From contig NAVB01000017.1 of the NCBI GenBank assembly GCA_002179805.1, positions 30,416 through 94,415 on the forward strand: a stretch of DNA of 64,000 nucleotides. Direction: 5' to 3'. Under the pieces are notes generated by a model that ran no database searches, was not told the origin of the DNA, and saw only the letters and a list, made by a program, of their open reading frames with translations. The translations under genes and the position numbers were made by a program. The stretch comes from Acanthamoeba lenticulata (lineage: Eukaryota; Discosea; Longamoebia; Acanthamoebidae). Shown here in pieces: positions 3,608-8,380 of the stretch (positions are counted from its first letter, which is position 1; each line of letters begins with the position of its first letter).

Positions 3608-4223
3608 ATAGTTTTGTGATCATTTGGGATGATGCACGCGGTGGGTTTGACGCCAAACGACGATGCCAATATCCTTGTACAGACTGGGTCACGCACTCTT
3701 CAAATTTGATAATTCGTACGTTCGCCATGGCGCACGTGGTAACCGACTTTGCCAAAGATTTCCTTAACTTAGATTGAGCGCCAAAAAAGAAAGCGTTGCG
3801 TTGCGATGCATTTTTTCTTGCCTGATTACTCCTCCCGACCCCCTATTTAAGGACGTATTTTGCAACCATGTTCCTGTAGGAAGGTATCTCTTGCCAAAAG
3901 AACATCAGCAATCAACTAAACCGAGCCGAGTTCTGGTCAAATTAGAGCTGGACACCAGCACGTGCGCCCGGGGGCCATCTGGTTCCCCGGCACTACACGA
4001 GGAGTCGTCAAGCAGGAGAGACCCGGCGAGAAGCCTCTCAGCCCTGCCTCTCGCTCGCTCGCCTCGGGCTCTCTTCTCAACCCACCGCCTACCTATAAAG
4101 TAACACAACCTGTCGGGTGAACGTTTGCTGCGGGCCGGCGGGAGTCCGGCCACTGCGCCACACGAACACGGCCGGGGAGGAGGCTTCCTCGGGGTTCTCT
4201 CTCGTCGCTTGGACGTTTTGTCC
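3608..4223. other. Intergenic region upstream of the Zn2Cys6 gene
   Basis: This 616-base stretch lies between the stop of the membrane F-box gene and the ATG at 4224. I see no convincing exon in it. It holds a TATA-like box close to the downstream gene and otherwise mixed-composition sequence. Confidence 0.5.
4094..4100 (+). promoter_or_regulatory. TATA-like box of the Zn2Cys6/PAS-like regulator
   Basis: TATAAAG sits 124 bases before the chosen ATG at 4224, a sensible distance for a TATA box plus 5' leader. Motif only; no mapped start site. Confidence 0.45.
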
Positions 4224-6320: not shown

Positions 6321-8380
6321 TCATGGCCTCCATCGAAGAAGGGAGCCGCCGCCCTCTTCTTCGAGGGAGGAGAGGAAGGAGAAGGCAAACTCGTAGGCAC
6401 TGAAGCGTGTCGAGCTCACAAAGGCCGAGCGCAGCGTCGACGGGCCAAGGCCGGAGAAGAAGGCGCGCACGCCGCCGCGCGCCCAGCAGGCTCGCATCAC
6501 CTCCACCGCTCCGCGTCGCTCAGCATAGAAGCCCGGCGTCACGGGCTGGCCCTGCAGGTTGGCCTTGATCACCTGCGTGTCGTCCCCCGCCACGAAAATG
6601 AGCATAATAAAAAAAAGTTAAATAAATAAGAAATTGATGACGTTGGACGGGCAAAGCGCACGTCGAGCGGGAAGTTGGCGAAGCCGGCCGCCATGCCCGA
6701 GAGGCCGCCGGCGACCATAATGGCCAGCGAGTGGTCCTTCCCGTTGGGCGTGCTGTGCCGAGGTGGTGTGTTGGTGTGAGTTAGCGCAGATGAAGATCTC
6801 GCCGACCGGACGGCTGGACGTACGGGCCCATGGCGCGGTTGATGGCGTATTTGAGTTGTTCGTAGCACCCAAAGTAGACCGAACAGAAGATCATCTCCCG
6901 GAACAGGTTCACGTTGAAGCCTGGCACCACAAACGTTTGGCGTTGAACAACTTTCTTTGCCTAGAGGAAGAAGAAGACCGATTGAGTGCATGTACCATTG
7001 TAGAGGATCTTGGGGCCGTGCATCTTGACGATCTCTCGCGCGCAGTGAAAGCTGCCTCGGTACCTGTTTATGATTTTGTCGGCCATGTTGGTGAACAAGG
7101 CACATAGAGCCCCGTGGGAAGTGCCTTTGTAGAGTACCGCTTGAGAGATACGTTATCGAGCTGAAGCTGGACCTTCACCATCTCGAACGGTGTGGAGAGG
7201 AAAGTTGCAATGGCACCAACACCCGCCCCGGCTAGGAAGTACTGGTACCCCGCGAGCCGCTCTGAACAAGTAGAACAATTCTTGGTTAATTATTAAATAA
7301 ATATTAAAAAGGAAATTTCGTCAACAAAAATGGTCCCACAAGCGCAGCAAAGAGGCAGAATGGAAGCGATAAAAAGCGCCGCCGGGCCGAGAGGAAGACT
7401 GCTGGGATGAGCTCGTCTGGTGGCGGGCGTAGCCTTCAAAGCTACGGACGCAGAGATGCGTAGGGGTTCAATTCCTCCTTCCTAGCGCCTCTTTTGTGCC
7501 TTTTTCTTGTTCTCCTTTTGAAACGGTTCGTACCTGGCGTTGTGGAGGACGTTGTAGTGGTCGTGTTGCGGCGTTGGGGATCTTCCTTGGCCAAGAGGAC
7601 GAAGGCCTGGCTCCACTCTTGCAGCATCAGCTTCAGCTGGCCGTAGACGGAGAACGAGCTACACAGACGACCGATCAACATCATGATACGTATGAAGAAG
7701 AAGCAGCAGCTAAGCAGTAAGGACGGCAGGAGGAAGAGGTGTACAGCATGTTGAGGATGGTGAGGCTGACCAAGGGCGAGCCCATCCCACGAAATAGGCT
7801 TCGCACCTGCACAGAAGAGACGCAGAGATGCAGCACAACGAACAAGAAGCAGAACAAGTGAGAAAGGAGGTAACCACGAGGTAGAAGGAGGATGCCGCAT
7901 ACGCCCTCATGCTTGACGACGCTCAGGAGGCAGTCGAGGGCGCCCCGGTAGTGCGATTGGGTCTGCAGCCGCACTGCAGCCGTTGGCCATAAGTGTCACA
8001 CGCGTACACACAAGCTCAAGAACGCTCAATGGTCGCTACCACTGTGGAAGAGAGTACCTTTCACGGTATCGAGCGGGTGGCCTGTGCACGATATAAGGCC
8101 AACAGGAAGAAGGTTTCATCAATGATCAGGTGCCCACGTGACACTTTTGAGATCTGCAGACATACCAATGCAGGTTCCCACGACACCAGCAAAAAAGCCT
8201 GTTGTGCATTGTAAAAGTGCGATTAGAGCAAGATTTGAGCAAAACGCCGCGATTTGGTGTGATTTTGCCGGAAGTCAAGAAAAGCGCACCGGCGAGTACA
8301 TCCTTGACCCCTCGCTTGTGCGTGAGGTGGGTCGCAACTGACCTTGCCGCAGCCGTATCCTCTGATGGCGATCGTGACAT
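6321..8380 (-). CDS. Mitochondrial carrier family (SLC25-type) transporter
   Basis: About eleven exons give roughly 345 residues. All three tripartite repeats carry the carrier signature P-x-[DE]-x-x-[KR]: HPLDTVK near 8045-8065, TPFEMVK near 7180, and FPLDVIK split by an intron (6565-6665). The first repeat begins KDVLAG-FFAGVVGTCIG, typical of carnitine/acylcarnitine and related inner-membrane carriers; the substrate cannot be told from sequence alone. Start: ATG at 8380, just before the first repeat; no in-frame ATG lies upstream. The intron at 7262-7533 is 272 nt, much longer than the others, and contains a tRNA gene on the opposite strand. The 3' end faces the Zn2Cys6 gene; the 5' end is about 100 bases from the stop of the PQ-loop gene on the same strand. 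Confidence 0.9.
7369..7375 (+). promoter_or_regulatory. TATA-like element upstream of tRNA-Sec
   Basis: The sequence gATAAAAAg places ATAAAAA at -32 to -26 relative to the first base of tRNA-Sec (7401). Vertebrate tRNA-Sec genes use a TATA box near -30 with upstream elements (type 3 pol III promoter). The position agrees, but I could not identify a proximal sequence element. Confidence 0.45.
7401..7487 (+). tRNA. tRNA-Sec: Selenocysteine tRNA, anticodon TCA
   Basis: The 87-base sequence folds as a eukaryotic tRNA-Sec. The 9-bp acceptor stem pairs 7401-7409 with 7478-7486, with a single T.T mismatch at 7408/7479 that is also found at the matching place in vertebrate tRNA-Sec; the discriminator is G7487. 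A D arm begins near 7411. The anticodon arm pairs 7428-7433 with 7441-7446 around loop CTTCAAA, giving anticodon TCA (7436-7438). The long variable arm is ACGCA/TGCGT closed by a GAGA loop (7448-7461). The T arm has only 4 bp (7463-7466 with 7474-7477) around TTCAATT. The 9/4 acceptor/T arrangement and the UCA anticodon are diagnostic. It charges with Ser, which is then converted to Sec, and it decodes UGA. It lies inside an intron of the mitochondrial carrier gene, antisense to it. Confidence 0.95.
7492..7495 (+). terminator. Pol III terminator of tRNA-Sec
   Basis: A TTTT run starts five bases after the discriminator base of tRNA-Sec, the usual RNA polymerase III stop signal. Confidence 0.7.

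Follow-up and report, generated by a model that had tools for sequence, protein, structure and literature searches.

The 64,000-nucleotide stretch of Acanthamoeba lenticulata DNA that we analyzed (hereafter the window) contains a real and complete eukaryotic tRNA-Sec gene. It is very probably a functional, autonomous, single-copy gene with an external type 3 Pol III promoter, placed antisense within an intron of a mitochondrial carrier gene (Table 1). A predicted tRNA-Sec of Acanthamoeba castellanii has already been published (PMC8038987). What is new is the promoter, for which the sequence gives strong evidence of a gene-external Pol III gene of the U6/SRP type, with a DUSE-like upstream element, in an amoebozoan tRNA-Sec. 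Of all parts of the locus, this promoter module is the most informative, and it is absent from the initial annotation, which had described the tRNA, its nesting in the carrier gene and the recoding of UGA.

The identity of the gene, given in the initial annotation as a eukaryotic tRNA-Sec of 87 bases with a TCA anticodon, was confirmed together with its coordinates by three approaches. ARAGORN called tRNA-SeC(tca) at positions 7403-7486 of the plus strand, the sole tRNA reported within the window. The Rfam model RF01852 matched positions 7401-7486 over all 91 model positions with 72.8 bits (E 5.5e-13), so that the proposed check with a Sec-specific covariance model came out well above the gathering cut-off of 47 bits; this was also the only match in the window at that threshold. 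Finally, a count of the stems gave an acceptor stem of nine base pairs, eight of them standard and one U-U, and exclusively standard pairs in the D stem (6/6), the anticodon stem (6/6) and the T stem (4/4). The variable arm (7448-7461) has all five of its pairs and a GAGA loop, and the TCA anticodon occupies positions 7436-7438.

Table 1. Features of the tRNA-Sec locus and of its host gene (window coordinates)
Feature	Position	Strand	Remarks
SLC25-type mitochondrial carrier gene	6321..8341	-	modelled with 11 exons; uncertain at the 5' end, with the open frame defining the 3' end
Host intron	7262..7533	-	272 nt; GT at 7533, AG at 7262; spliced alignment to the Neff carrier
TCCCACAA, DUSE/PSE-like element	7334..7341	+	first base at -67
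GATAAAAAG, TATA-like box	7368..7376	+	-33 to -25
tRNA-Sec gene	7401..7487	+	86 nt plus discriminator G7487; ARAGORN, Rfam, stem count
A-box region TGAGCTCGTCTGG	7408..7420	+	extra A as described for Sec genes
Internal B box GGTTCAATTCC	7465..7475	+	in the T arm
T4 run	7492..7495	+	likely Pol III terminator
T5 run	7501..7505	+	3' of the T4 run

Across the whole assembly (48.5 Mb in 1825 contigs), RF01852 produced eight matches with E <= 0.001, and only the match at 7401-7486 exceeded the cut-off among the 53 of 5225 first-look candidates that were scored. The initial annotation had allowed for a better-scoring tRNA-Sec elsewhere in the assembly, and there was none among these candidates. The other seven matches (41.8-42.8 bits, of two sequence types) are class II tRNA-like loci below the cut-off and were rejected. 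We detected no second tRNA-Sec and no haplotype copy, and the 401 bases at positions 7200-7600 match only themselves in the assembly. When the same model was applied to control genomes, the cut-off was passed in 5 of 14. As expected for such collections, DNA patterns derived from the tRNA-Sec had no match in the virus and prokaryote contig collections, and the seven records retrieved from a phage collection each covered no more than 33% of the tRNA.

The product of the host gene matches the Pfam family PF00153 with 208.7 bits; with 80% identity, a carrier of Acanthamoeba castellanii Neff is its best relative. Nine of the ten introns in the gene model are 71-96 nt long (mean 83), and the tenth, of 272 nt, holds the tRNA-Sec. 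Since the exons flanking positions 7262-7533 do not share a reading frame and stops interrupt the sequence between them, an intron is required here. A solution with two introns around a 2-nt exon, obtained by alignment with a harsher insertion penalty, was rejected as a scoring artefact. The spliced alignment and the Pfam match thus uphold the earlier placement of the tRNA-Sec antisense in a 272-nt intron of a minus-strand carrier gene. The unit extending from TCCCACAA to the T5 run measures 172 nt and lies wholly within this intron, leaving a remainder of 100 nt, so that the intron looks like one of ordinary size plus a complete RNA gene. Nested tRNA genes are of a familiar kind. The antisense geometry and the containment of the entire unit within one intron would also suit a regulatory role of the nesting, in which carrier transcription or antisense intron RNA tunes the tRNA-Sec, or the reverse. 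We know of no functional link between tRNA-Sec and the carrier gene, and we regard such regulation as unlikely; it would be compatible with an autonomous gene.

The evidence for an external promoter comes from comparison with other small RNA genes of the same genome, in which we found six U6 loci (L057-L062) and six SRP RNA loci (L099-L104). The motif TCCCAYAA, in the form TCCCACAA or TCCCATAA, is present at -65 or -66 in all six U6 and all six SRP loci; TCCCATAA is the form in four of the six SRP loci. For one U6 locus (L061), whose Rfam match started 13 bases into the gene, the start was shifted correspondingly. An AAA core follows at -28 in 12 of 12 loci, at an offset of 37-38 bases from the first base of the element. 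The A-rich box around this core is rarely a good TATA: it contains ATAAA in three of the 12 loci, and the others have ACAAA, AGAAA or similar. The tRNA-Sec gene has the same arrangement, with its AAA core at an offset of 37 bases from the first base of TCCCACAA, and its element lies one base farther out than that of any of the 12 U6/SRP loci.

We scored this arrangement with weight matrices trained on U6 and SRP loci together, on U6 alone, on SRP alone and on seven less redundant loci, the tRNA-Sec being excluded from each set. Position 7334 of the plus strand ranked first among the 127,860 positions of the window in all four trainings. It scored 25.9 vs. 16.5 for the next window site with the combined matrix, 26.5 vs. 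14.3 with the SRP matrix and 26.7 vs. 16.1 with the seven-locus matrix; the lead was small with the U6 matrix (20.1 vs. 17.4). These scores are to be read with the partial redundancy of the U6/SRP training loci, some of which are copies of each other. No equal score was found among 455,094 positions of the other fetched loci, a figure in which overlaps are counted repeatedly and from which the training loci are excluded. The best other promoter-like site, in locus L002 (19.2 bits), has no Rfam RNA beside it and is therefore probably a chance match.

The motif by itself is not rare: TCCCACAA occurs twice in the window over both strands, vs. 2.2 occurrences expected by chance, and it is thus the exact position that is decisive. 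By arithmetic from the window frequency, the chance of a match to TCCCACAA in five given positions is near 1 in 10,000. In the 58 bases 3' of the element, identity to the upstream DNA of U6/SRP loci is 21-27 of 58. All 12 comparisons exceed the mean of the shuffles, yet between 117 and 989 of 2000 shuffles reach as much. Since this DNA is barely and unclearly closer to U6/SRP sequence than shuffles are, it does not have the look of a recent promoter copy, and recent duplication as the origin of the promoter was set aside for lack of a clear sign.

Ordinary tRNA genes of the same genome served as the control for these elements. The control set of 71 loci comprises 63 tRNAs, the seven from the RF01852 search and one from locus L093; these lists give minimum numbers, and 11 distinct 5' sequences are represented among the first 70. 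The L093 tRNA gene (3612-3682, 64.3 bits) lies upstream of a thioredoxin reductase gene on the same strand. TCCCAYAA was found within 110 bases upstream of none of the 71 loci. An AAA was located at -28 in two of them and at -30 to -28 in six, and an ATAAA-like box was seen in the TATA region of six.

These control loci also bear on another reading of the tRNA-Sec, by which it would be an ordinary type 2 tRNA gene that recruits TFIIIC through its internal A and B boxes, with the upstream elements coincidental or minor. The ordinary tRNAs, with no upstream element in any of 71 cases, are presumably driven by internal boxes, and the B box GGTTCAATTCC of the tRNA-Sec is near what we take to be the consensus. 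Against these points stand the rank of the upstream module, which tops the 127,860 window positions in the correct place and on the correct strand, and the A-box region, which has the additional A that is reported for Sec genes (PMC2695483). On balance we consider a purely type 2 gene quite improbable, and an external promoter remains our preferred reading. With the B box intact, a mixed promoter is possible.

We also compared the tRNA-Sec element with the U2 genes, 20 of whose 23 rows were examined (L105-L124). None of the 20 has TCCCAYAA in the approximately 130 bases upstream. Instead, ACCCATAA is present at -58 or -59 in five genes and CACCACAA in 11 (ten at -57 to -61 and one at -71), and the remaining four have neither. 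These are diverged forms of the element, mostly closer to the start than in the U6, SRP and tRNA-Sec genes, and the absence of TCCCAYAA from U2 suggests that the Pol III-like form of the element is distinct, on the assumption that U2 is synthesized by Pol II here. The U2 genes are split into classes by their upstream element. A candidate for the cognate factor is encoded in the genome as well: the domain of SNAPC3, the SNAPc subunit that we searched for, matched at two loci with 188.6 and 187.4 bits and in none of the 14 control genomes. The two loci (L125 and L126) have near-equal scores and lie on separate contigs, as a gene duplicate or an uncollapsed second haplotype would.

When the 65-66-base spacing of the U6/SRP genes is applied to the tRNA-Sec, the predicted start falls at 7399-7400. 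The nearest purine is G7401, which is the first base of the mature tRNA, and this makes a leaderless transcript likely. The vertebrate tRNA-Sec transcript is leaderless as well. At the other end, the T4 and T5 runs follow the gene closely (Table 1). The overlap of opposite-strand transcription units served by different polymerases, which the initial annotation gave as a fact and which we infer, has become much more likely through the U6/SRP-type promoter and these T-runs.

The genome also encodes partners with which a tRNA-Sec would work. The initial annotation had proposed searches for SepSecS, PSTK, EFsec and SECIS elements; SepSecS, EFsec and SECIS were all matched above their cut-offs, and PSTK gave a single weak match (23.4 bits, E 5.3e-4) below its cut-off of 382.35. 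In the profile search of the assembly, SepSecS was represented by eight stretches on one contig, each above the cut-off; its model matches three of the 14 control genomes, including Bacillus subtilis, where the match is over the cut-off. Domain III of EFsec had one match of 67 bits (cut-off 27), which spans an apparent intron, and none in the 14 controls. SelD was matched by five stretches on one contig that cover model positions 8-226, the best with 52.6 bits vs. a whole-protein cut-off of 125; this model matches all 14 control genomes and exceeds the cut-off in two of them.

Two SECIS elements exceeded the RF00031 cut-off in the assembly, and none was found in the 14 control genomes. The first of them belongs to the thioredoxin reductase gene in L093, whose last exon ends in KKGC-TGA-GGT-TAA (with the stops read as codons), and lies 338 bases past the TAA with 40.8 bits vs. 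a cut-off of 35. The C-terminal part of the encoded protein aligns with the PDB entry of thioredoxin reductase 1 through the C-terminus (E 5.9e-55), and the TGA, typed as C, aligns with the penultimate residue of that protein. The second SECIS (L094:1632-1693 in L019/L094, 36.7 bits) may be either a chance match or part of a novel selenoprotein gene; no selenoprotein was recognized by eye in the plus-strand upstream frames of L094.

The initial annotation had taken the tRNA as proof of UGA recoding. This is too strong a conclusion from the tRNA alone; with SepSecS, EFsec and a thioredoxin reductase gene that has both a TGA and a SECIS, UGA recoding in this genome is very likely. The same genes would serve little purpose in a genome that lacked a tRNA-Sec, which argues against a view of the locus as a pseudogene or relic that is unused, or whose real counterpart is absent from the assembly. 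Gaps are likely in an assembly of 1825 contigs. However, the stems, the promoter-like elements and the T-runs at this locus are intact, and it is the sole scored copy above the cut-off, so we judge a relic to be very improbable.

Most likely, then, the tRNA-Sec is a Pol III gene with a gene-external promoter of the SNAPc type, like its vertebrate counterparts, and the complete unit is contained in a single intron. We infer the transcription of the gene, its polymerase, start site and binding factors, and the charging and use of the tRNA from the sequence. A SNAPc-like complex would bind TCCCACAA at -67, and TBP with a TFIIIB would occupy the A-rich box near -30. Initiation by Pol III would then take place at G7401 or at most one or two bases away, with termination in the T4 or the T5 run, and removal of a 5' leader would be unnecessary. 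After serylation, PSTK and SepSecS would convert the product to Sec-tRNA, which EFsec would bring to the UGA codons of SECIS-containing mRNAs, such as that of the large thioredoxin reductase. The carrier gene, for its part, would splice the antisense tRNA-Sec unit out of its own pre-mRNA.

Vertebrate tRNA-Sec is an odd tRNA in having an external promoter, and the presence of a U6/SRP-type promoter on the tRNA-Sec of an amoebozoan would make the age of this arrangement directly testable. We give about even chances to the idea that the external promoter goes back to an early ancestor and did not arise as a refinement in vertebrates, with one SNAPc-bound element known as DUSE in amoebozoans and as PSE in animals. 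If so, U6, SRP RNA and tRNA-Sec would have been driven in this manner since before the split of amoebozoans and animals, and without Brf2, which according to PMC4671959 is confined to vertebrates. The DUSE would then be an amoebozoan-wide PSE and no dictyostelid invention, and a start at G1, which dispenses with a leader and with RNase P cleavage, would date back just as far. The comparison also yields a candidate rule by which Pol III genes may be located in Acanthamoeba: TCCCAYAA, an A-rich core 37-38 bases after its start, and an RNA start 65-67 bases after the first base of the motif. The same rule may help in choosing Pol III promoters for use in an Acanthamoeba host, for which the A. castellanii U6 promoter has been used to express guide RNAs (PMC9879987).

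Among the matches listed in the open-licence literature, neither the DUSE in Acanthamoeba nor an external promoter on an amoebozoan tRNA-Sec is described in titles or abstract openings. In the accessible text of PMC8038987, A. castellanii has a tRNA-Sec predicted in RNAcentral, a SelB and a thioredoxin reductase with UGA and SECIS. The Neff strain thus shares a predicted tRNA-Sec with A. lenticulata, and its thioredoxin reductase agrees with the one found here; the genomic position and promoter of the Neff tRNA-Sec do not appear in that part of the published description. In PMC3188802 the DUSE is given as [AT]CCCA[AT]AA, located approximately 63 bp ahead of ncRNA genes that include those of spliceosomal RNAs. 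It is described as serving both Pol II and Pol III genes, and the authors of PMC7919456 expected no conservation of it outside Dictyostelia. The Acanthamoeba elements TCCCACAA and TCCCATAA resemble the Dictyostelium DUSE, with their first base 65-67 bases upstream compared with about 60-63 bp for the DUSE. TCCCATAA fits the printed motif exactly, whereas TCCCACAA has C for A/T at one position. Unlike the Dictyostelium DUSE, the Acanthamoeba element occurs outside Dictyostelia and on a tRNA gene.

The closest parallel in promoter layout is provided by vertebrates. The Xenopus tRNA-Sec gene is described with a TATA box, a PSE, an activator element and a B box (PMC2695483), and the type 3 promoter class of vertebrate tRNA-Sec is also that of U6 (PMC4671959). 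The A. lenticulata gene similarly combines a PSE-like element and a TATA-like box upstream with an internal B box. In contrast to the vertebrate gene, which depends on SNAPc and Brf2, its upstream element is the DUSE-like TCCCACAA, and the gene lies antisense in an intron. A further likeness, in the accessible text of PMC2695483, is to trypanosomatids, where the control of tRNA-Sec is suspected to be separate from that of other tRNA genes.
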